A stretch of DNA of 49,593 nucleotides, taken from positions 1-49,593 of the forward strand of contig NW_003132863.1 of the NCBI RefSeq assembly GCF_000003605.2, given 5' to 3'. Both the position numbers and the translations under genes were made by a program. Position 1 is the stretch's first letter. Every line of letters starts with the position of its first letter. This DNA comes from Saccoglossus kowalevskii (Eukaryota > Hemichordata > Enteropneusta > Harrimaniidae). Shown in pieces: positions 5,096-49,169 of this stretch. The notes under the pieces were generated by a model. That model was not told the origin of the DNA. It saw nothing but the letters and a program-made list of their open reading frames with translations, and ran no database searches.

Positions 5096-8000
5096 TCATG
5101 CATTAAATCTTCTTACACAGCAGACATTTTTGCCAGTATTCACAGTCTATTACCTTTTTCTGTATTGAAAATTGTTTTTGGAATACTGAAAAACTTATTG
5201 AAGATTTCAGAAAATGTGGTTTGCATTATTTCCACAATTACCTAGGTTATAATACTAGCTACCCTGGAGCATAAACAATCTTTGCAAAACTTTTTTTTTA
5301 TTGGTGTGAAGGTATGTATGTAAATATATCACGACCTCAGATAAACTTTGTAAAAAATATATTTCAGGTATCAGTCTTTGGTATCATCGTTCCAATCATG
5401 GTCTTGGCATTCTATGGGAAAGAATCACAACGATAGGCAGAAAAAATGAGGATTTTAGACTATGGGTTTTACTCAGATATTTGAGCATGCACACCTCTGT
5501 ATGTTTAGGTAGCACCGCACATATAACAACACCCTCTGAAAAACTGACAACATCAACTAGTTCAATATACTCTCACACTCTTGAGGTCAAAGTTCACACA
5601 TCAATCAATACTGTCTCATTTCAAAAGAACTTGGACTCAGCAGATATTTGACATTCATCACCACAGCAACTTGTCAAAGATATTTACTGCAAGAGGGATG
5701 AGAGGGGTGTTTTCTACCCCAATATCCTCCTTTTAGGTGCAGCATTTTTAGAAAAGATGACATATAGGCAAAAATAACTGGAAAATGAGAGAAATACTCT
5801 TGTGACCACTTGTGATCTTTGAGGTTAGACACACCCAATATGACATCCCCCTTCAGTTTTCTAAACTCCGTCGATTCAATAGCTTTTCAGAATATAATAA
5901 GTATAGAATAAAACCGGTTTCTGGTCAGTGAATGGGTCACATTTCACTGAACTGGACTACAGAGACTCATTACTGAGACAGGCATTACAGTGAAGATGCA
6001 TGGCCAAAGGGGTATTACAATTTGCAGAAGGGCTCCTAAGGTGTCAAGGGGCAGTACATCAGATTTGCAGGGGGGTCAGTTGTGCAAACGTCAAGAGTTC
6101 ACTTGCTCACATGATGCAGTTCTAGGATGAAAGGTTTTATAGAGCATGTAAATAAAATATTTAGAGCACTAGTAAAATACTATTAAAGAACAGTTTTTTT
6201 AAACCCATGGCCATGCGCCCCCTTACCCTGGGGAGCAGATCATCTGGCAACCATACAGTTCTGATTTACCGGGGATCACATGTGGCCAGTCTTCAACTGT
6301 GACCTGTCTGATAGTAATTTTGGCCCTAAGGAAGCCATAGAATGCTCCATTTTAACTTAGAATTATCAAAAACTCCACACCCTGATAGGGAGAACCCTAT
6401 CTCTTGCAGTTTTTTTCTAGAAAAACCCCTGAAAATAGTTAATAAATACTTGTATACTATTTGATTCAGTAGTAATGCACTTGTCTAGTGTGTCCATAGT
6501 AACTAAATGCTACTGTTCTAATATAAATACCAAGAGATGGCATGTCAACAGACATTGCTGTGTAGTGATCATTAACCAAATATTTGAAATATAGCTTGCT
6601 CTCATTTTATTCTTTACGGCAAAAAGTTGTAATTTGTTCTGAGAATTGTCAGGTTTGTCTACTTTTATTATTATGAGTTCATACCATCAGAATACCGAAA
6701 ATTAAAAAAAAATGAGTCATCAAATGATTTTTTAAGATTCAAAAGTCTCAAATATCATGAAAAATGGTCAAAATTGTCATTTTTACACTGGTTTCCATGG
6801 TGAGATTATTAATTCATATCATAAATTTTGCTCCATGACATAGGATGATGAAAAAGTTGTAATTTGTTATTGTTATGAAACCTAACATTGTGACATCATT
6901 GAGTTTCCATGGTGATATTATTTGTCCATTATATACAATGAGAGGTTATCTCCCATAATGCATTGCTGAGTAACATGCTCAGTAGTGGAAAATTTGAATT
7001 TGGCTTAAACCACCTTAAGTAATTCAAATAAAATAGACAAGATACTATTCATTCACGGATCACAGAGAGTAGCTGTCAGTTTTATTAGTTGATAGGAAGT
7101 ACTGAGCATCACACAATATAAAGGACACTTTATGACACAGCAGTATTCAATGGTTATGGAGGAAATGATGAAACAAGATTAAACAGGTTTTCTTTATTCA
7201 AGGACACTAGAAAACACTGGGAAGTGTACTGAGGGAGTCGTAAAGTCTATGTAAGCTGTGATTGGGTGATAAGACTAGCTGCTATACACAAATAAAGTGA
7301 ATCACACCACAGTACACAATAGAAGGCATCTCTATTGTTTATGACAGAACTAAAACAATAACATGCATTGTACAACATACCTTTTATTGAAATAGAAAAT
7401 GAAGCAAGCTTTAACAAGTCTTTTTCTCATTCAGAACAAATGTCTGTTTGTTCTTTAAAATTCAATTTCATTTACACCTAGCTTATGCTAATGAACAGTT
7501 GTGATTCTTAATTTTATTTAACTCTTTGGGAGTCAGTTATTTGCCGGTCTTTACTAAACAAAACAGGTTTTTCACACAAAGTTCATGACTCAGGAAACTT
7601 AATTAACAACATGACTTTAAAATACTTGAAACAAATTGGCTAGCCAGAAAAAAAAATTGTCTTTGCTGGAATACAATTCAATGAGAAGTTTATAATTTTT
7701 CAAATTGCACACATCTATACATATAAACTGATTAACATGGCATTGTATTGAGGCAGCAAGTTAGCAAACAGAATCACTAATTTGTCAACCACTTTGGTTT
7801 TGACTTAACCAAATGACCTACAATTCAAATATTACCACTCATTTTATCACCACGTAATAATACAATATTTTAAGGAAGTTTATGAGGTTTTACAGAACTG
7901 AAAAGTGTGCAAAATTATTTGCCAAGCCTTGGATAGTTCACCCCTCAACAGGAAACATGAGTTGGAAACATAAGACCGATGTGAGACAGGTTACTACTGA

Positions 8001-10659: not shown

Positions 10660-13600
10660 CCCATAACATTAGTGATATCATTTCATTTCACTTAAGATCA
10701 TTAACAGGTGTGATTAAATTAGCTTAAATTTTTTCGATGATTTTCTAATAACTTTAAAAACAAAGCTTCTAAAATAGCACATGAGTACAATCTGAATTTC
10801 ATAATGGATCTTGACAAAAGAGATCTATGATATTAAAACTCTCAAAGTTTAAAGTATGGCTTACACTTTTATAAGTAGCCGCTACCTCAATACTTACAAC
10901 AATATTAGTTATCACTTTTAACTATGGCCTCACTATTTTAAGCCTTCTATCCAAATGACAGCACTAAGAAGAAAACCATTTAATCACAGAGGTGGGATAG
11001 GGAGTGGCTGTATTAATCATTAAGAACATTACAGACCTAAGAAGAGTATATAATATATAATGCTCCTCCAACACCCATGTTGCATGTCAGTTTTACTTTG
11101 AATATCTGATGTTTCAGCCCTCCACATTTTCGGCCTTTGGCATTTTGGCCCTGGGTGTTTTGGAATCATTTTGAATATTGCTTTATTCCAAACCAAGAAT
11201 TTCGGTCATGGCATTTTATTTCTTGGCTGGGAACATTATGTACTTTATAAAAACCATGTATGTATTTGTTAGTTAGAGATTTTCCCAGAATATACAAGTT
11301 ACAGATATATTTGCGTTTGAGTCTAAAACAAATGAGCCATTGGACAACTGCGACATTGGACAACTGCGACATTGAACAACTGCGACATTGGACAACTGCG
11401 ACATTGGACAATTGCGACATTGAACAACTGCGACATTGAACAACTGCGACATTGGACAACTGCGACATTGGACAACTGCGGCATTGGACAACTGCGACAT
11501 TGAACAACTGCGACATTGGACAACTGCGACATTGGACAACTGCGACATTGGACAACTGCGACATTGGACAACTGCGACATTGGACAACTGCGACATTGGA
11601 CAACTGCGACATTGGACAACTGGGGCATAAGAAATTATACGCGATATACCTGGGTAGTTGCTGTCTATAATGAATATTAAAAAAAAGTGAGATTATTTTC
11701 TTTCTAGTCTAGCAGCTCTGATCAAGTACAATTTATCATTGGGTTTTAGGTCACTACTAAGTTCCAAATTGGATAATAGTGACAATCAACATTACATCAA
11801 CAACTGCATTATGGGTTCCATCCATGCAAGGTCATATACAAACTGGAAAACATTATCAATAATGATGTTTCCAATGCAGACAGCCGATGAAATTTACTAT
11901 CATGCCAGAATGAAAAAATTTCATACCCCCCCCCCCTGCGGGAGAGAGTTCATAGAGTTTGACCCAATAGCGTCCATGATAACTTAGAGTACTGAAACAA
12001 GATAAACATGAAAGGTACACAGATTGAAAAGAAACTTGGTACATTGTTGTAACTACACAGACTTCTCCCTTTGAAGTGTCCGATAAGAATGTCACACACA
12101 CAGCCTTGGCATCACTAATTACAGATGTCACTGTATGCATTGGAATCTCTAATGCAGTCTCTATTGTCAAGATAAATTAAACTTACTCTCATTAACAGCA
12201 ATGTCATTGAAAACAAAGAAAGATTCACCAAAGAACATTTTAGAAATGCATCAATGAATTCGTAAAATCAGTTTATAAATGGTGCTGTTAGACTTTCAAC
12301 TACCCATCAGCTTATTATATGTAATTAGTTAGGATCACAAAAAAAAACCAGATAATTGCATTTGTTGTAGCTTATAACACTGAATAATGATGAACAATCA
12401 TGACTATAAACCTCAGTAAGTCAGAAAAACCTAAAGTAACCACACGTCAGTCTCTTTGTACACCAAAATATGATTTAGTAGCTAGTTTTGGTTTAAAGTC
12501 TTGATAATGGCCTTCAGCAGGTGGTACTGCAGCTATTTCAATTAATTTGATCAAAGAACACAATGTTTACTTGCTTAACAACATTTTTGCAGATCCCCAT
12601 TTTGCAGATGTTTCTCTAAACAAACTCAATTAACTACACCACCATGTTTCTAAAGTTCAGAATTCACAGATGTATGTCTTTGTGATTTATGCTACGCTAT
12701 TTATAGAAAACTTACTGGAAACTTATCGTGTTATGTGCAAATATCACAAAATAACCTCCATGTTTTCTTCACACATTAATTTGTTTTTAATATTTTATTG
12801 AATGCAAAACCATTCAGATTGCTGTAAATAATCTATATGTATTTAATAAAATAATTTAATATAATATTTTATATATAGTTATGTAAGATAACTAATCTGG
12901 AAAATTATACAATAAAAATATTTTCTGAATAGTCAAACTACCGTATTTACAATCCTGACATCAATTCAGTCGTTAGTTACCCAATTGATTATCCAAAATA
13001 TCATGAGGAGATATGATGATTGTACATCGTGAAATCCATTCATTTAAACATTACAAGTTTTAATATTTCATATCTTATTTGGTGAATAGAATACTGGAAA
13101 CATATTTCATATTTTAATATCAGGAAGTTATTTAATTTATATTACTCAAAATAAAAAACATTATTAATTATATTTAAAGATTCATTGAAAATTGCTTCAT
13201 TTGTGTCTACATTACTACTGACCCTCAGCCTCAGTGATTCTAAAGCTCACCATACATTGTCAATAGAGGGCAGTATTTGGGTGACAGGGCAATCAGTTGA
13301 GAGTAGCTTGATGATGGATAGATGAACACACACTGATATGGACAACATGTAAAACAGCAAGAAGGCCACCGGCAACCAGCCTGTTGTCAGAACAATACAA
13401 CAGCCACCCCAATTATACGTAAACACGCGCCCTTTCATTTACACACATGGTCCACAATTGTCAGAGGACACGTGCCATGACAAAAAGATTCTGTCTAACA
13501 AAGAAAAACACACTCAATGAACAAACAAAATAAATTCCATCAGTCTAAGTATGGGCATGCAGCTGGTCTCTCGTATCATTCCATTAGCTGACATGCTTTG

Positions 13601-19968: not shown

Positions 19969-22900
19969 AAAGGAATACAAATTTCGGTTTTAATCAAAGT
20001 TTTCTTGCACTGAATGCTTCGAAGATTTTGAGATGCGGTTCAATTTGATGAAATTACCAGACAGTTTGAAACAATTTAAAAAATAAATGAAAATTAATAG
20101 TTTTGACTAAAACATTGGACATATTTTAATTTTAATAAACAGCCTTTAAGAAACTCAGAGTGTATAGTAACATTGGAGGAAACCATGTGACCGTTCAGTG
20201 AGTGCGGTACGGTGACGGTCATGATTTATTATCAATTGACGATGGAATATATTACCGTGACTGCAAAATATGTCAATCGCAAAGCCATAAATTAGGAGTC
20301 AAACATCTTTGAATAATATGGGGGGGGTGTATCGATACATCTGATAATCTTTCAGATATTATAGATAACTGGTTAAGAATAACTCGACCCTGAACGCTAT
20401 GTGAACGTTTCCGTTTTGTGTTCAATTTGTAGTTCGGTTCTTCTAAAGTTCAAGGATGTTCCAGGACATATAAATCTAGATAGAATTCGTCCACAAATTA
20501 ATTAGTGCGAAAATCGTTTTGCCAGTTATTATAATCTTCTATGAACAGGACTTCGCCGTGACTTCGTCCCATTATATTTTTGCTCCGTCAAAACGATTTC
20601 AATTGGCCATATAAATTTGGTAGGAGCGAATTGACAAACAAACAAATCTAGATACGTGGTAGTCAAACTCCCGCCATCACAAATGTCGTAAACAGCGACC
20701 CCGTATCTCCCGGGTTTGGTTTTTTGCGACGACGCCGTCAGTGATTAGGGTACCATAGACTAAACGGACGTTGGGGGCCGGGAGACTAGAAAAATAAACA
20801 CACGTAAACGGGCTTGGTTGACCTGCGTGCCATTCCTCGCATATTTCTCACTTTCTTTCCCACGCATTCTGCAAATATACGCACACGGCCTGAAATTGTT
20901 GTTTCTTTCGCGCATGCGATCAACAATTGCGGAAGCTCCAACACCCCGATACATTTTTAATTGCTCTATGAACCATAAACTTTCAGAAAATGAGGTTGAA
21001 GTTTTCAATTTTCTTTAAAAAATGATATGTTTTAACACGGTTTCTAGATACGGTCTTCTAGTAACCGTGGTTTTAACAACAAGCGTTTAATACGCTTGAA
21101 GATAATGTAGTGTTTGATATGCTTTGGCAAATTACTTTGGAAGTGATAATACGTTTCTGAAAGCGGTAAAGCTGAATTTTATTCAAGTGTATATGTAGGT
21201 ACCATTTACGTGGAGTTGATGTGTAAAATAAATTAGGGATCTTCATTTCTTTCGAATTGCTATATAGTTAGAATTCCGCAAAGTATGTACGAAGGTGGTA
21301 CGGTGATCGTATCTACCGACGCGTGGCAGAGGTTGACGCGATTCCGTTCTGCCTGAGTGCATACTTTGCGGTATTCTCACGATAACCTTATAATATTATT
21401 GTACGTCTCCTGCTTGTAGCCATAAAGTAGTGATCTATAACAGCAAAAAGTGTTCGTGCCTACGCGAGTTTGCGTCACGCATCTGGAGGTACACGCACAC
21501 ATCCATTAGTCACGTGGTACGATAATGGTGTGGCCGACGTAAACTAGTGTTCAGATATCACGTGACTATGAAATCCATTTTCCAAATAAGGAATACTTTC
21601 GACCACGTCTTTTACACTTTTGAACACGTCCGTGCTGTCTTTGCTATATTATATTTTGCCTTGACCATTATAATTACCTTAATCTCACAACGTTATGGTT
21701 TGATAAAGTGACCCCGGCAACCATATGGTTCGACCCCAGACAACGTTGACTCACTAATCTCCTTGTACTCTTTTTCCGGAAATGCCCCTGTTGGGTTCAG
21801 AATGTTTAAATGTCATCTCCATGGTTGCTATGCCGACGGGAGGTGGCTTCACACAGAGTGCCCTCAAACAGGAATGATTTTGTAAGGATTCTCAGTCAAA
21901 ATGGAATCCCACAAAAATCACGTTGAGTCAGCTTCTTGGCTTCTGTGAAAGCCGGTCTTCAAGAAAAATGTAAGTGACTGTGTAGATGGTAACAAAAAGG
22001 TTATTGGCCCTGATTTTTACACGCATTTTGTTAATAAAATATAATTTTAGTAAGGAGTCGGACCATTTGAAAATGATGTGGGTGACGGGAAGATTTTTTT
22101 TTAAAAATGCAAGGCACAAGAAAAAATAAATAAAAATTCTTCCAGCCATCATGCCCTACGATGTTTCGAAATCACTATATGTGTGATTTTCTGTGCGTCG
22201 GTGGCTCGTCATAATTTCGGATTAAAGCCCTACAGTTGCCTCGCCGCGTTCTGTTCGACGTGGGACTCACGGCGACGTCTAGTAACGCGTGTAACATACA
22301 TCGTTTATTTAGACGAAATTCGAACACGCGCCGCGCGTCGACTGTACCACTGTGCAAGATTGTATCAATTTCTATTCGCAATCCATTTTCGGGTAAAATG
22401 TATCAAATTTGCGTATACCGGCAAATTTTCAAATTTGAAGCCGGGCCGAGTGGAGTGGTAGCTGTGTACCTCTTTGTAAGGATGTGTGTTTTAACAACCT
22501 AATACCAGCGTGAGCATGAGGATACGTGTTTATAGAAGCGGGAACTAAGTAAACCAGGACACTGTCATGCTGGTACAAACCACAGCAGGTGAGCGAATGG
22601 GCAATTCTTAGAGAATGTTGATGAAAATGAACAACCGGGCCGTTACGCTATAATTTCACCCGTCACACACAGGGTCCGGACGGTGTCACAATATTTCTAC
22701 AGAGAGATGCTATGGTAGAGGTTGAAACGTACAAATATGATCATATGAGGTGTCGCTATAAATAACGAGGTCCATCATTCCCGGTGATAATTAAACTCTC
22801 GAACTTCCGACACAGCTCACATCTCAGCTGAACACAACAGAAGTAGAGGCATGAGATGAACTGGACCGTACCGTGTCATCGCCGTACAAACGCGCGTTAT

Positions 22901-39830: not shown

Positions 39831-40872
39831 GTGGTCAATCACGCCCAGCCGGATCACGTGATCTGACGCACAGTTCAGCGAAACTATACTGCTCGTTTTC
39901 CGTATCCCAGATTCAATGATTGTAGGACTAATTTGCATAGTTGCACGTGTTTGCGTATGACAACGAATATAGAATATCCCCATACTATTTCAACTACGCG
40001 TTGATATGCATTCAGTCGGTTTGAATACCACGCACGGAAACTACGAATAATTCGTTTTCACAAAATATAATCAAAAAATGCCTAAAAACAACAATTTAAA
40101 GCGCGGTGGTCGTCGCGCAGCGCGTGTTCGAATTTCAAGTAAATAAACAATGTATTTTACACGCGTTGTATACGTCGCTATGAGTCATATGTCGAACAGG
40201 GCGCGGCACGACAATTGCCGCCATTTAAATCCTCCGTGTTTTCAGCATGATTCCAAGAAGATGACAATGTCAGTACCGTCGCCCGCATTACCGATGCGAC
40301 AACTATGATTACACTCATCGTACGATCATAAATAAAATGTCCACGGTTATAATATGAAAACAGTGTACGCTGGTTTCAGAAATACGAACCAGTGTATTTG
40401 TCAATTCTAATTAATATTAATGAGTTAGTTCAACATTTTCCAAACAGCAAGCGCATCATTTTGAATAAGTGGGCGGACACGTTGCTGTTTTCCATGACGA
40501 CGGACGAGGCGCATATTGTTACACAAACTAATATTAGACCTTAGAATTGACAAAACCACGCGTTGATTCACGTAGAATTAGTACAGAAACTCTGTGTACA
40601 AACAGATGTAATATTCAACATAAATAAAATGATTACATGTGAGAAGCAATTTGGATAATATTTGTTAGCTTGTTCAAAGATATTGTTTGTTACTGTATCT
40701 GTATAAAAACACTAGGATACAATTTGTCGTACCAAAAGCACAAGTTAATGAAAACGCTTGCGCTTCAAATTATCTGTAAATCATCCGGGCGCATGTGTAC
40801 TAGCAACTTCACTATTATGAATACTTCTATGTTTATTGTCAGAACAGCACTGAGTAACATAGTTATAATATA

Positions 40873-41476: not shown

Positions 41477-41616
41477 TCATATAAGTTGTGGTCTTTTGTA
41501 CTCGGGTACTCCAGGCAGTTGTCGTATCAGATATGTACGTTTGTGGTTTATATTTCTCTCATTTACAACAAATTCCGACCAACTTGACATCCTGGCAGCT
41601 AAAAAGATCTCGGACC
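41477..41616 (-). CDS. O-fucosyltransferase-like exon D (C-terminus)
   Basis: The acceptor is GGATTATTTGCAG. The leading GG completes an Arg codon from exon C, and the frame ends in TGA at 41479-41477. It encodes SEIFLAARMSSWSEFVVNER and a short basic tail ending PQLI. The SSWSEFV block matches the family's C-terminal SSFS/SSWS motif. The tail has no KDEL-like ER-retention signal. Confidence 0.83.
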
Positions 41617-44600
41617 CTGCAAATAATCCACACGTGTGTTAATGTCACTTAGAATCTATGCGACGTTGTACTCGCTATGCTAATCCACTGGCGCCTAGAT
41701 ACGACGCTAGTAATACATATTATGGGATGTCTCGAGAAATAAAATACTCTGTGTTCATTGGCCAGTTTGAATTTGAATGGTACACGCGGGGAGGTATATA
41801 ACCACGTGATTTTAGATGATTGTGACAATGTATCGTAGCAAAGACTATAGTCTTTGATAGTAGGGAGGCAAATAGTGGGATGGCTTTCAAGTGAGAGGAA
41901 TGTCGCATATAATCTAGTCTAATTATAGTCTTCTAGTCTATTGCTATTTAAAAAAACGATAATTAATCAGCGGGAATGACTTATAACTTACTGTAACATA
42001 TTTCTTGCTCCACCAGTGACTTGAAATAGTAATCTTTCATAATACCCGTGTTGTCTTTATTCACAGGGAGGTCCCTCAATGAGAACACCTTCTCACTTGG
42101 TAATACTTTAGAAAAATGGTCCAATATTGACTGATGGATAACGTAAAATTAATACAACGTAATTTTATTTGTTTATTTGATTATGTTATATTTTCAATGT
42201 ACGCAAATATGTAATGCGTATATACAATGAATATATTAATAAGTCATAAAACAACAATTGCGTTAAACTTGTTCTTAAATGCATGACAATAGCAACACAT
42301 GTTGTTCTGTGTATCTTACCATGTTGTAGACTGACAGACTGACAGACAGATGGTAACTGTATTGTTTTCCAATGGAAGGATTGGTTTAACATTAGTTAGC
42401 TGGGAAGTGGTGTTTATATATTAAGAAAAATCATAATATCAAATTTGTTTAAAATGAAAAGTTATTGGGTGCGATATGTGCTGTTACAACTTGCCATTAA
42501 TATTTACTTGACAAAATACAAATATTAACAGCCACAATTTGTTGATTACCAAAACGCCACATCATTTAGGCGAACAACTATCATGGCTTTGGCTAAACAT
42601 TTTCTACTTGCAATTGGTAATCCGTTGAAAGTGTTATTTATTGACCAAATTGTTGGCAGCGTCACGGGTGGTGCCCATTATTACCCTGATCAGTTAAAAT
42701 TATTTGTAAAACCTGGTCAGCTGTCGTACCCTGACGCATATTATAGGTCAATACAAGATTTCCACTTACACCTGTGAAGGCTGTGGATATAAAGTCACTT
42801 GACCCATAGAGTGATAACCATTGTACCATGTTGTATCCCGTATAATTATGTTATTGTGTAGAGAAAATGGAATTCTTTCTTACCAAAGACCATTCAGGGC
42901 AGCTGATATATAAGCAGGATATATTTCTTTGTTTCATTAATTTTGCCACTGCCTGGGTGATGTTTGGTACAACTTCAGACAACTGTGATTTAACTTTATT
43001 GCACTTGTTTGCGTCACGTTGAAAATAACATCTAAAACAAAAACATAATATAACGTGTACGTTACAAGCACTTCGCATTTTATTTTTTAACTAATAACTT
43101 GCACGTTACAAGCACTTCGCATTTTATTTTTTTAACTAATAACTTGCACGTTACAAGCATTTCGCATTTTATTTTGAACTAATAACTTGCACGTTACAAG
43201 CACTTCGCATTATATTTTTTAATTAATAACTTGCACGTTACAAGCACTTCGCATTTTATTTGTTTAACTAATAATTTGTACGTTACAAGCACTTCGCATT
43301 TTATTTTTAACTAATAACTTGCACGTTACAAGCACTTCGCATTTTATTTTTAACTAATAACTTGCACGTTACAAGCACTTCGCATTTTATTTTTTAACTA
43401 ATAATTTGTATGTTACAAGCACTTCGCATTTTATTTACTAATAACTTGCACGTTACAAGCACTTCGCATTTTATTTTTTAACTAATAATTTGTATGTTAC
43501 AAGCACTTCGCATTTTATTTACTAATAACCTGCACGTTACAAGCACTTCGCATTTTATTTTTTTAACTAATAACCTGCACGTTACAAGCACTTCGCATTT
43601 TATTTTATTTACTAATAACTTGCACGTTACAAGCACTTCGCATTTCATTTTTTAACTAATAACCTGCACGTTACAAGCACTTCGCATTTTATTTTTTAAC
43701 TAATAACCTGCACGTTACAAGCACTTCGCATTTTATTTTTTAACTAATAACCTGCACGTTACAAGCACTTCGCATTTTATTTTTTAACTAATAACCTGCA
43801 CGTTACAAGCACTTCGCATTTTATTTTTTAACTAATAACTTGCACGTTACAAGCACTTCGCATTTTATTTTTTACCTAATAATTTGTATCTTACAAGCAC
43901 TTCGCATTTTATTTTTTACCTAATAATTTGTATCTTACAAGCACTTCGCATTCATTTTATTTACCCATAACTTGTACGTTACAAGCACTTCGCATTTTAT
44001 TTTTTAACTAATAACTTGCACGTTACAAGCACTTCGCATTTTATTTTATTTACTAATAACTTGCACGTTACAAGCACTTCGCATTTTATTTTTTAACGGC
44101 AGGAACGAGAACTCCAGGACAATGCCAACATAAAATCGCGCCCTCTGTCGGTATATAACGCATAGATTGTGTTTTTTCGACTCGTTGTATGTTTTGTTTT
44201 CGAATAATTCTTGCTGTTATCATAGATTACTTCAATATTTCACAGTTACCCATACGCAGTTGAGAGATTGGTCACGTAACAGCGCGCACTGGGAAGACGT
44301 CAGTTATCATTCTACCTTAATATCTGACCACCAATCTTCAACCTGTCACATGACTTATGGCTTCTAATGATATTTCGTGATTGCAATCACAACATGAACG
44401 TCATATGACTTTAGTGTGACTAAAAGTGTTAAAAACGGTATTTTCAGTAGTTAGAACAGTCAAAAACGACAGTAGCAAAATTGGTCGTCATGTAATCCCT
44501 TAGACAAACTTACAATAACGTGTTCGCCTATATCTACGCATTCAGGTGATATATAGGCTGTTAAAGTAAAATGCTTATTGACTTTTAGAGAATTTCTGAA

Positions 44601-46911
44601 TCACACATATTTTTTTAGCTCGCGTTCCTCTGTTTTTACCTTAAATATGGGACTCTAACCATATATTTATATAGAATACCACATGAAAATACGCTATACA
44701 CTGATAATCGTAATCTCCCAGCTGTGCATAATCCCAGTTTCGTATCAACAGATTGATCTATTATTGAATTGAAAGTTCAAATGCCATATAAACTGACACG
44801 TGCATATTAGTGTTTGGCGTTTTACTGTATTTACCCAATAAGTTAATTAGTCATGGCAATGTATTGATGCGATACATACGACATTTCTGCTTACGTGTTA
44901 CGTCAGTGGAACGAGGCGATACTTAAGATATTTTTGTTGATTCACAATAATAATGCGCAGGCATTTATACGTCCAGATAACTGCCCATAAGCACTTTACA
45001 TTATTATCCCTGGTCACTGGGTCTTATGAAACAATCCTTAAACTATCTCCAACAACCTGAGCAGCTCAAGCCGTATCAGAGCCAAGCACATACATATCAG
45101 TCTTTACCCTACCGTGATATCGAGTTACTCCTGGGTGGAGACAAGCACATGAGTAAAATGCCTTGCCCAAGAACACAAACAATTTTAAATCGGTGATATT
45201 CGACTCAACAATCCTCTGAATCTGAGTTCAAAATCCTTGCCATTATACCCTACCCGGCTAACGCATGGGACCGATACTTACGACTTGTTACGTTACTGTA
45301 TTGAGAGAAGCGATACTTGCAGTATTCTTTATTACGCCCATATATTTGTCCAATATTACTTGCTGAATACGCCACTGTACTACAGTTGATACGACAACGT
45401 ATTATTCAATATTACTTGTTACGCCAACGTATTGGTCCGATGCGCCACTGTATTGATGCGATACTTACAACCTAACTTTCGCCTTGCTACGATAACGTAC
45501 TAGTTTGATATTACTTATTACGCCCACGTATTGGTCCGATACTACTTGTTTAATACGCCACTGTATTGGAGTGATACTTACAACCTAACTTTCGCTTTGT
45601 TACGATATCGTACTAGTTCGATATTACTTATTACGCCCACGTATTGGTCCGATACTACTTGTTTAATACGCCACTGTATTGGAGTGATACTTACAACCTA
45701 ACTTTCGCTTTGTTACGATAACGTACTAGTTCGATATTACTTGTTACGCGAACGTCACTGTATTGATGCGATACTCACGGTATTACGTTTGACTTGTTAC
45801 ACTAACATATTGATTCGATATTACTTGTTACACCAAATTATTGATGCGATATCACTTATTACGTTAACGTAATGGTCTGATACTCCACAGTAATGGTCAG
45901 ATATTACTTGTTACGCCAACGTAATGGTTCTCTACGCCATAGTATTGATGCGATACTCACGGTATTACGTTTGACTTGTTACACTAACATATTGATCCGA
46001 TATTATTTGTTACGCCAACGTAATGGTTCTCTACGCCATAGTATTGATGCGATACTTACGGCATTAATTCTGACTGTTACGCAAACGTATTGGTCCGATA
46101 TTATTGTACACGCTAATGTATTAGCGCTATATACTTACGGCATTTCTGCTGATTTGTTACGCCAATGCATCGCCAGGTAAGGCTTGCCACCACAGAAACC
46201 AGTTAAAAGACGGTCAGTGACATTTCTCACATTAGCGGACCTTCTCAAGTGTGTTCTTACTTTATCCAACATTTCTTCCGTGTTATTTACTTGAAGTCGT
46301 GATCTTGATGATTGATATATTCCAAGACACGGTGCATGGTTCACAATCTCTTCTAGTCTATGAATATCGACTTTTTTCATCATGATGACGTCATCATTGT
46401 CCGGAAGTCTAATCTCTAATTCTGAATCAAATAACTTCTCTTTTGATCGTTGATATGCCGACAAATTCCACGTTACTACTTTAGTCTCCTTTGAAGTACA
46501 TTTCTCCCTGAATTCATCAACTGTTGCTAATGGTAACAGCTCGTTCAAGATTTTCACATCAAATGTGTCATTGAATTGTCTCATATGTTCAGTGCTGTAT
46601 CCACGAACATGTCCTCCATGAAGAAAAAATGGTGTCATCACCAGAGTACGATTTGACAATAGAGCCATAACTATCACTTTCTCCATCGCCAAGTACTGGT
46701 TGTTCTGGCCGCCGGAATCACTTCGTTGTATCCCAAGCAGGAACGGCGCTGTGATATTAGCTACATTGGTAATCGACTGCCCCCTCACTCTGGTTGAGTA
46801 TGACCCATTCAACGCTGTATTTTCAACCTTTTTTGTTTTCTTAGTATGTCCAATTAATGTTGGTGATTTATTCATCGAAACCATATTCAGTTCTACGTTG
46901 TACTTTTTATG
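41477..46911 (-). CDS. GDP-fucose protein O-fucosyltransferase-like protein, four visible exons
   Basis: Predicted secretory-pathway glycosyltransferase of the O-FucT fold (POFUT1/GT65-like), which would move fucose from GDP-fucose to Ser/Thr of a folded domain. Exons on the - strand are 46911-46139, 43031-42884, 42130-41992 and 41616-41477, with phases 2, 0, 1. From the ATG at 46884 they join into 390 aa ending in TGA. Landmarks: nucleotide-sugar loop GGQNNQ (58-63) then LLSNRTLV; FNDTFDV (104-110); YLAMHWRNKSAE (236-247), where Arg242 sits where the family has its catalytic HxR arginine; NISCLYISCPEW (285-296); SLVEQEICYRSEIFLAARMSSWSEFV (336-361). There are at least ten N-glycosylation sequons, fitting a lumenal protein. 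No signal anchor is visible, and an acceptor-like CAG at 46914-46912 precedes an open frame, so a 5' exon is probably missing from this model. It is too divergent to name POFUT1 or POFUT2 with confidence. Confidence 0.85.
41992..42130 (-). CDS. O-fucosyltransferase-like exon C
   Basis: The acceptor is TTATCCATCAG and the donor TGTTACA|GTAAGT. It encodes 46 aa, SILDHFSKVLPSEK through KDYYFKSLVEQEICY, with phase 1 at the end. SLVEQEICYR is a clear C-terminal block of the O-fucosyltransferase family (helix before the GDP-binding SSxS turn). The acceptor's pyrimidine tract is weak, but phase and alignment fit. Confidence 0.82.
42884..43031 (-). CDS. O-fucosyltransferase-like exon B
   Basis: The acceptor is TATGTTTTTGTTTTAG and the donor TCTTTG|GTAAGA. 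The single leading A completes a Pro codon with CC from the previous exon. It encodes CYFQRDANKCNKV through SCPEWSL (49 aa) with two sequons and a hydrophobic strand SCLYISCPEW typical of the nucleotide-binding half. A 44-bp minisatellite begins only about 20 bases upstream of its acceptor. Confidence 0.85.
43053..44096. repeat. Minisatellite, 44-bp unit, about 24 copies
   Basis: The unit contains GCACGTTACAAGCACTTCGC followed by ATTTTATTTTTTAACTAATAA. Variation is confined mostly to the T-tract length and the start of the unit (CTTGCACG, CCTGCACG, TTTGTATG, TTTGTATC), whereas TTACAAGCACTTCGCATT is almost invariant. It lies wholly in the intron between exons A and B of the O-fucosyltransferase-like gene and ends about 20 bases from exon B's acceptor. 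Confidence 0.95.
44947..45275 (-). mobile_element. tRNA-derived SINE with TTCTTGGGCAAGGCATTTTA core
   Basis: On the - strand: head GCCGGGTAGGGTATAATGGC and a degenerate B-box (GTTGAGTCGAATATC), then the widely shared invertebrate SINE block TTCTTGGGCAAGGCATTTTA (about 45175-45156). The 3' end is TGTAAAGTGCTT..TATAAATGC..ATTATTATTG. It lies in the first visible intron of the O-fucosyltransferase-like gene, same strand, next to a satellite array. No clear target duplication was found. Confidence 0.75.
45270..46135. repeat. Degenerate satellite with TTGTTACGCCAACGTATTGG motif
   Basis: Loosely repeated pieces of TTACGCCAACGTATTGGTCC, GCCACTGTATTGATGCGATA and CTTACGGCATT. A clear 113-bp higher-order unit recurs, with ATACTTAC at 45461, 45574 and 45687; a second block repeats around 45740-46060. 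It runs directly into exon A's splice donor. The frame at 45893 is an array translation. Confidence 0.85.
46139..46911 (-). CDS. O-fucosyltransferase-like exon A (largest, N-terminal half)
   Basis: Open from the acceptor TTGATTTCAG (AG at 46913-46912) to the donor ATGCC|GTAAGT, phase 2. The first in-frame ATG is 46884. Upstream in-frame residues HKKYNVELN would be coding if an upstream exon joins here. It carries GGQNNQ, FNDTFDV and the HWRN motif. If unspliced it would stop two bases past the donor (CCG TAA). Confidence 0.87.
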
Positions 46912-49169
46912 CTGAAATCAATGTTCACAGGTTTAGTACAGAGCTGTGTTGGTGGTGGTCACGTGGGGGAGGGGTATTCATCCAGTTTGTCAGACAGGGT
47001 AGAACAATATTGTCGCTAGGGTAGGACAAAACTAACGCTTTGTTATAATTGAACAAGAAGTGAATAATTTGTATGAAAGGAAGAGAATGTCACGAAATCA
47101 AATACAAGTATTCAACTTGAAAATGGTAATGTAACTATCCACCCACATAAAAATGGTGCCGGCCAAAGTGAATGCAAACGTAATAGGCTGAACGCTGCTA
47201 CCAAAATTTTACCTTGTTGCACACTCCCGGTTTTGACAAAAGCTATCGATATTGTTATACCTTCTCTGCAATTTTACCTGAAAACTGTCGACAAAGAAAT
47301 TTCTTACGTGAAATTTAAAGAGATTATTTTGCAGAATTTGGTTTTAAAGAGAAACCGACAAACCTATCTTAATCCATGTCAGGTGGAAATGAACGAATTA
47401 ATTTACTGAATTTACTGTGTGAACTTTTAACAAAAATACGACCGTCAAAAACCGAACACCGAACTAAATTGCGAACCAATCACTAAATTCTCATATGAAA
47501 CAAAAATAAAATTGATATTGTGGTATGTACAAATTTTTCATTAAGATCAAAAACCGAATCTCTTAAATCACGTGATCACAGTTATATTATGCTGATAACA
47601 TATCTGTTGACTACTGGCAATGTTTTAACACCAGATTTTAATCTTGCGGTAACACGGTGATGTTCTGAAAAATTATGCCTTGATAAAACCAATGAACGGT
47701 TGTCAGGGAGAACGCCACATTAAAACTCATTAATGACAAATATGTAAATGAAGAAGGTTCAGTTCAGTCTGTATCTCATTCGTCGATGTATTTAAAAGTC
47801 AAGAATTACATTCTCCGAGTGTACACATTGACAAGTAATGGAAAAAGAGATATTACAATGTTGTGTCGTTGGTGGCGCTGTTTCCATGTCTACGCAGACA
47901 GCAGAACTAGTTTTTCTAAAGAGATCACCTGACGAGCACAATGACCAAAAAAGTACCGAACTAAAGCTTGGTAACCTCTCAGCTTGTACTCCTTGATCTG
48001 CACAACAGTCAAAATCGCCATCTTATGAGACCCATATCTTGCGCATGCATAGCGCGACGACCACCACCCTTTAAGTTTCTTATATATCTAAAACTTGTTT
48101 TTCATTCAATTCAATTAAAAAAAATCATAGGAATAATACAGTGTGTCAAATTTTTAAAAAAGCCTTTGAAAATGGTCGGACGCAAGCAATGAATAGATTT
48201 GTTTAGTGAAATGCAAACGCCGTCCGGTGCCAGGCATCAGTTACGAAATTTGTCGAGATTTTCTGTGATGATATTCCAATATTTTATGCAACCACCCAGT
48301 AAGCCAAAACTCTAATGCATTCTACTGACAAACACTAGTAATACCGACCAGAAACCTAATAATATATTTCTATGGTATCCCACGCAGTTTGATCACATGG
48401 GGGTCAATAAACTCACTTTTTAGACATCCACTACACGAAGCCTTTTTTGCAGATTATTTTTATCCTATAACGATCTATAACGTTTTCGACTCCAAAATCG
48501 ATTGGTTTTTATTGCATTTTCAACGAGTTCGCCTGTTTGTTCTTCCATTGACGTAGGGAAATTTGGACAATTGCGAATAGAAAAACATGCAAGTCTGGTG
48601 TTGTACAATGTGTCACGTGTCAACGCGTTTTATTTTATTTTATTTTTCTTTCGGATGTCGATGCTTTCATTTCGGGTTCACAGCGTTTTACCAATAAAGC
48701 GTAAATAAAATATAAAACATGGCAACATTATAATGCGTCGATCGATGGATAAAGAAAATCCTGAACACGGTGAAACATCACGTTTTCCTTCTATCGTCAC
48801 AATTGAAGTAAAATGAAAAAAAAAAAGATCGTGCGATTACCACGGATTAGTAAATATGGATTTATATTTGCATGCTAACAAATATCGAATTTTTTTAGTT
48901 AGAAAAGTGTATTAATATTGCATTAACATACAATAACCCACTCTCATTATCTCTATATATATGATATTTTTAATAATATTTTAAACTTATAATTGTTATA
49001 TATCAGTGTTATCTACGGATACAGTAGGCAGTAGAATGAGGTAATTTTTAGCCACGGCGTCTAATTTAGCATGTAATTAAGGAATAACCACCCCAGGAAC
49101 CAGTATGCCACTATATTGTGATCAATTGCACAACACACTGAGTACACACAAGCAATATGCATAATTAAA
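46912..49169. other. Upstream region of the O-fucosyltransferase-like gene
   Basis: No recognisable exon on either strand. A small 5' exon with a signal anchor is expected for the - strand gene but could not be identified. Frames at 47968 and 48502 look like chance. Confidence 0.4.
48016..48024 (-). promoter_or_regulatory. YY1-type box upstream of the O-fucosyltransferase-like gene
   Basis: AAGATGGCG on the - strand, about 1.1 kb upstream of exon A. Its ATG opens a 43-codon frame (MAILTVVQIKEYK at the start) with no evident signal anchor. It is a candidate transcription start region for the - strand gene, on weak evidence. Confidence 0.25.

Follow-up and report, generated by a model that had tools for sequence, protein, structure and literature searches.

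The window, i.e., the whole stretch of 49,593 nucleotides that was analyzed, contains an O-FucT-like gene on the minus strand, and a tandem array lies at the head of the first intron of this gene. An open frame of 260 amino acids with a match to PF10250 (GDP-fucose protein O-fucosyltransferase) was found on this strand at about 46135-46917. The exon A frame alone matched PF10250 with an E value of 6e-12 and 46.2 bits, which exceeded the curated cut-off of 31.5 bits and placed the gene in the O-FucT family. As the gene has introns and belongs to this family, the source of the DNA was considered to be eukaryotic. Another Pfam match on exon A, to Pox_A11 (E 0.036), was under its own cut-off and was disregarded. 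The parts of the gene were located as follows:

46139..46911, minus strand: exon A of the O-FucT-like gene (acceptor TTTCAG, start at 46911; PF10250 match; end conserved in paralogs)
46131..46138, minus strand: real 5' splice site GTAAGTAT (donor G at 46138, directly after the last exon base at 46139)
46138-43032, minus strand: intron 1, ~3.1 kb
42884..43031, minus strand: exon B (from the A-B join and tblastn with paralog frames, which placed it near 43033-42860)
41984..42148, minus strand: exon C, approximate limits (tblastn with paralog frames; open in the paralogs' frame)
41480..41626, minus strand: exon D including the stop codon, approximate limits (tblastn with paralog frames; open to the stop)

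The final 32 nt of exon A (46170-46139) encode MHWRNKSAEMP, including the split last codon, and the sense strand at the exon end reads ATGCATTGGCGTAACAAATCAGCAGAAATGCC followed, across the splice site, by GTAAGTAT. Splicing of exon A to exon B preserves a single open frame (..KSAEMP-CYFQRD..), and exons C and D read open in the paralogs' frame, each by itself and unjoined to A and B; over exons A-D the gene looks intact. Intron 1 measures ~3105 nt, compared with ~540, 1038, 837, and 203 nt in four paralogs. The single Rfam match, mir-135 at 44338-44419, was taken as chance, as its 20.8 bits were far under the gathering score of 59.2 and its E value was 0.74.

The array consists of tandem units of minisatellite size, with units of 31 and 47 bp and TRF periods of 113 and 99 bp. 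Its main elements are listed below:

45266..46130, minus strand: main array, with approximate lower limit (short units of 31 bp, long donor-bearing units, and pieces of other lengths)
46045..46090, minus strand: first intronic long-type unit, 46 nt (donor motif at 46059, with ATGCC before it as in the exon)
45900-46105, minus strand: 99-bp higher-order repeat (TRF, 2.1 copies, 89% matches)
45443-45749, minus strand: 113-bp higher-order repeat (TRF, 2.7 copies, 95% matches)

The long units (46-47 bp) carry the donor motif, while the short units of 31 bp, which are close to ATACGTTGGCGTAACAAGTAATATCGGACCA as judged by eye, lack it and mostly have GTAATATC in its place. Other pieces of 30 to 68 nt are long or short units fused to a partial unit. 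In the 47-bp unit, 32 nt align to the end of exon A and ~15 nt to the start of the intron. When cut at the phase of the array, the true junction is itself the first unit, and a degenerate short unit follows shortly after. The unit at 46090-46045 reads ATACGTTTGCGTAACAGTCAGAATTAATGCC GTAAGTATCGCATCA in the sense direction and shares with the exon end the 13 identical nucleotides ATGCCGTAAGTAT. A preliminary description of this DNA had announced a donor in the first intronic unit; it is present, but at 46059 rather than at 46062. The looser copies announced for the remainder of the array were also found, as 20 cores of 17 nt (the exon's own counted), six full long-type units with GT[A/G]AGTAT at 46059, 45960, 45778, 45694, 45581, and 45468, and two partial long-type units at 45320 and 45281. 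In a shortened form at 45301-45267, AACAAGTC directly abuts GTAAGTATCGG, and this form is a possible intermediate between the 47-bp and 31-bp kinds.

The array copies were compared with the real donor using a consensus table. On this table, the real donor (gccGTAAGTAT) scored 1.37, and the array donors at 46059, 45960, 45778, 45694, 45581, 45468, and 45281 scored 1.37-2.58. Decoy donors therefore exist as sequence, as had been proposed, since all seven motifs equal or exceed the real site on this table. In the case of the six full long units, one had the score of the real site (1.37), two had 1.58, and three had 2.58 by the same table, and nine GT sites in 45265-46130 scored above the real donor or at most 1 bit below it. 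However, several intron sites outside the array and the exonic site at 46230 (3.18) rank as high or higher on that table, so the donor score alone does not predict use. The expected consequence of reading on past the real donor was confirmed as well, because CCG TAA follows directly. Among four array lineages, seven of the nine donor columns were invariant (mean identity 0.89), compared with all six columns of the 6-nt tail and 7/17 and 2/15 columns of the exonic part. We know of no splicing role for the tail; as this best-kept part has none known, column conservation was not read as selection.

These donors raise the reading that the array is regulatory, in which U1 would bind to the extra donors, and these would either compete with the real site or shield it; some transcripts would then stop at the TAA as an off-switch, or the long intron would be guarded against premature polyadenylation. 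We regard this as unlikely. The nine near-equal or better GT sites, on the consensus table, would suit such a role, as would the lower variation of donor and tail than of the exonic part among the four lineages. However, the motif is not generally retained, the 31-bp units having lost it, and 0 of the 28 paralogs examined show junction copies in the next 1.4 kb. Moreover, the even better preservation of the tail is in line with shared ancestry or homogenization rather than with selection on the donor, and the table gives equal or higher ranks to the non-array sites and the exonic site. A more specific version, judged slightly less likely still, would make the array a candidate donor bank at the head of the intron, whose intact copy number would set the fraction of TAA-terminated transcripts and tune the output of one member of a large family. 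Most likely, the array has no function, and the reading preferred here is a minisatellite that derived from the exon A-intron 1 junction and expanded neutrally.

The preferred reading requires that the array unit be homologous to the junction. When the 74-nt junction was locally aligned to the array, the score was 38. The score was reached by none of 1000 shuffled arrays (mean 18.7, sd 2.3, maximum 28) and by none of 1000 shuffled junctions (maximum 33). The central claim of the preliminary description, that the satellite resembles the exon end plus its splice donor, was thus upheld; the claim was to be abandoned if the score was no better than for shuffled sequence, and 38 lies above both maxima. 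With softer scoring, the observed score of 23 was reached by 1/1000 shuffled arrays and 0/1000 shuffled junctions. Along exon A plus 200 nt upstream, 74-nt windows taken in steps of 20 scored at most 22 against the array, except the last one (-79 to -6), which comprises exon alone without the donor and scored 28. Because this donor-free window still scored 28, the match lies partly in coding sequence and goes beyond the donor consensus.

A profile was also built from the six full long-type intronic units, excluding the own exon, and was searched against 128,210 bases comprising 3.5 kb of the window, from the junction upstream, and 29 paralog loci. The top match was the own junction (17.7 bits, E 3.5e-4). 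The second to fourth ranks went to the homologous junctions of L010 (E 0.0016), L009 (E 0.02), and L011 (E 0.025), three paralogs that lie on a different contig from the own gene, and the fifth match had an E value of 0.34; as the paralog junctions are mutually homologous, these matches are not independent. Column-permuted profiles (n = 100) reached 6.7 ± 1.4 bits with a maximum of 11.2, compared with the 17.7 observed. Single subtypes were weak queries, with the 46059 unit finding junctions at E 0.012-0.12 and the 45960 type at E 0.058-0.26. The 45694 type (three units) found no junction in the profile search, so it is linked to the junction only via its fellow units. The mean identity to the array lineages was 21.2/32 for the junction and 21.0/32 for the 46059 unit, and the junction therefore does not clearly appear more central to the lineages than this unit. 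The 46059 unit is equally near the 45960 unit and the junction (24/32 each), which would speak against a neat star-shaped history.

The array unit is thus homologous, in register, to the end of the host exon plus its donor. That the array merely holds a donor consensus beside a few exon-like bases by chance is very improbable. GTAAGT is a common consensus, the softer scheme was equaled by one of the 1000 shuffled arrays, and the 45694 subtype lacks similarity to the junction, all of which speak for chance. However, none of the 100 permuted profiles attained the observed score, and the four best profile matches all fall, in register, on the equivalent junction, with two contigs represented. In addition, the similarity extends upstream of the donor, and a separate relic at 44915-44864, described below, is concordant.

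The direction of copying was examined using the paralogs. Exon A as a query gave 103 matches in the genome at E ≤ 0.001, with some genes giving more than one match; 30 of these 103 matches, the own one included, were used as loci, leaving 29 paralogs. The O-FucT-like family is very large in this genome, and several matches can lie on one contig (e.g., C2856, C4449, and C1864). In 28 of the 29 paralogs, a GT donor follows HWRNK or a variant of this motif and lies no more than a few nucleotides from where the exon end aligns; these donors were picked automatically, and those of L027, L028, L040, L041, and L043, for example, are probably a few nucleotides off. In L039, no donor was found near the aligned exon end, and this locus was dropped from the intron comparison. 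In the next 1.4 kb of the 28 paralogs, no junction copy scored above shuffled sequence, as at least 6 of 100 shuffles reached the score in each. In contrast, the own junction scored 39 against the first 1.4 kb of its own intron, where the shuffle maximum was 26 and 0 of 100 reached the observed value. Since the exon end is conserved in paralogs without junction-like copies, it predates the array. Two directions had been left side by side in the preliminary description, namely, an array grown from the junction and an exon end rebuilt from an array unit. The former is supported by the paralogs, with their conserved exon ends free of copies and three of their junctions found by the profile, and the array is accordingly taken to have grown from the exon/intron junction.

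Over the 32 exonic nucleotides, the own exon disagrees with the state shared by its three closest paralogs only at position -15, where it has A for G, a silent change in a lysine codon. G is present at -15 in four of the five array sequences compared. The array could therefore have been seeded while the exon still had G; this dating is weak because A at -15 also occurs in L018, L020, and L021 and in two of the three 45694-type units. The alternative, in which gene conversion from an array unit rebuilt the exon end, is the least probable of all and was rejected, although 13 identical nucleotides span the donor in the exon and the nearest unit. The exon end is conserved among paralogs in which the array was not found. 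Moreover, the own exon shows no clear shift toward the array over its 32 exonic nucleotides; its sole deviation from its closest paralogs is at -15, a position at which these paralogs are matched by most of the array sequences compared. Regarding one of the paralogs, L011 (contig C2856), the exon B at about 5333-5479 has an in-frame stop (CP*WSL) and the exon A match of the same gene contains a TGA, so this gene is possibly a pseudogene.

The array also appears to be confined to this locus. When the array (45260-46133) was used as a query against the 572-Mb genome, only itself was found, in a search that scored one candidate and could miss degenerate copies. The other matches in a further genome search were self-matches of the array within the window and O-FucT junctions. 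A dispersed satellite was thus rejected as an explanation for the array, no unlinked copy having been found at the sensitivity of the one-candidate search. The far end of the same intron differs in this respect:

43050..44097, no strand assigned: 44-bp satellite, 24 copies (far end of intron 1, stopping 18 nt before exon B)

The same tool that found the array only at its own locus gave 62 genome matches for the 44-bp satellite, itself included, and many of them lie along contig C1548. The 44-bp satellite thus has the unlinked copies of a dispersed family, such as were not found for the junction array, and the two ends of intron 1 differ, one being occupied by an array of local origin and the other by a dispersed satellite.

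Beyond the lower end of the main array, two further elements were identified in intron 1:

44960..45268, no strand assigned: low-copy interspersed repeat, one copy (separates the relic from the main array)
44864..44915, minus strand: isolated relic of the junction unit, ..CGTAACACGTAAGCAGAAATGTC followed by GTATGTATCGCATCAATAC (donor motif at 44879)

The relic at 44879 had not been listed previously. Within the first 1.4 kb of intron 1, nothing matches the own junction better, and the score of 39 given above is that of the relic. At the 32 exonic sites, it agrees with the own junction at 24 and with that of L009 at 25 (range 23-25 over the own junction and L009-L011), compared with 20, 16, and 15 for the three array lineages compared. 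The relic thus resembles the junction more than it does these lineages. When the relic was used as a query, matches were obtained at L009 (E 3.6e-4), L011 (E 0.0025), the own junction (E 0.0031), and L010 (E 0.014), and all eight matches listed, down to E 9.5, were at O-FucT exon ends by their coordinates. In the case of 44960-45268, a whole-genome search found partial matches at four further places with 69-82% identity, and a blast search against the O-FucT loci found nothing. Because of these partial matches elsewhere, the segment looks like an inserted interspersed repeat.

The findings are best explained, and very probably so, by a junction-derived minisatellite, i.e., a neutral local expansion with latent decoy donors. 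This explanation is built on the homology, its direction, the gene being open across the intron, and the presence of the donor motifs, all read from the sequence; from these we infer the mechanism of duplication, the order of events, the deletion step, the role of the insertion, neutrality, and the choice of splice site. A stretch of approximately 47 bp, made up of the terminal 32 nt of exon A and the first ~15 nt of intron 1 (similar to GTAAGTATCGCATCA), would have been copied in tandem on the downstream side of the true junction and then expanded into a locus-specific minisatellite, probably by slippage or unequal exchange. The 31-bp unit would have arisen from the 47-bp unit by the loss of ~16 bp, including most of the sequence between AACAA and the donor, and parts of the array would have been homogenized later by the 113- and 99-bp higher-order copies. 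The insertion of the interspersed repeat may have separated the distal end from the rest of the array, so that the relic was spared homogenization. Since the upstream-most unit encodes the conserved MHWRNKSAEMP, it would have continued to serve as exon end and donor, and the array beyond the first unit would be removed by splicing as part of the intron. A latent cost would remain, since several copies keep GTAAGTAT or GTGAGTAT and the use of any of them would place a TAA right after the exon.

The precedents considered were drawn from open-licence PMC papers and are not claimed to be exhaustive. The human IFI6 gene (6-16, G1P3) has a minisatellite with a 12-bp unit at an exon boundary. Turri et al. 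(1995) reportedly described multiple splice donor sites in it. This minisatellite is the closest precedent; the kind of element is already known, with the present array as a new and unusually readable case. According to the cited account, two downstream repeat units of IFI6 serve as donors, giving three mRNA species (PMC4526556). Both are tandem repeats with host-gene 5' splice sites in their units; unlike the two IFI6 units, which that account describes as used donors (PMC4526556), those of the present array are putative donors, reading on meets a TAA directly, and the units are degenerate and 47/31 bp long. In potato RdRp, the cited text describes a tandem genomic duplication across an intron-exon boundary (PMC4974935). 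There, as here, a segment straddling a splice boundary was duplicated and its splice signals were inherited, but the potato case as described involves one duplication, a 3' splice site, and a new intron (PMC4974935), whereas the present array comprises many copies of a 5' boundary inside the existing intron 1 of the gene model. Internal tandem repeats that are variable, with units of 30 bp on average, are described for human segmental duplications (PMC2812944). These human repeats, like the present array, are minisatellites that lengthen exons or introns, sometimes at exon-intron boundaries; in the cited account, most of their expansion took place in primates and some differ between individuals (PMC2812944), whereas the present array is degenerate.

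It is rarely obvious from which sequence a minisatellite arose. In the present case, a single intron presents the likely founding unit, the direction of copying, a putative deletion intermediate, and a separate relic, and the paralogs without junction copies serve as outgroups. Moreover, the locus would provide a natural test of the fidelity of the spliceosome to one donor, as copies that match or surpass it in consensus are located between 79 and about 860 nt further downstream.

Elsewhere in the window, two other tandem arrays were observed, a 17-bp-based array at 565-1249 (TCTAAAGAGGTCTTCAG) and a 16-bp array at 11338-11622 (CATTGGACAACTGCGA) with 96% matches. Short pieces of 40094-40230 showed up to 95% amino-acid identity to frames of L009, with weaker matches at 22282-22351, and the segment 40094-40230 is probably a fragment of a transposable element.
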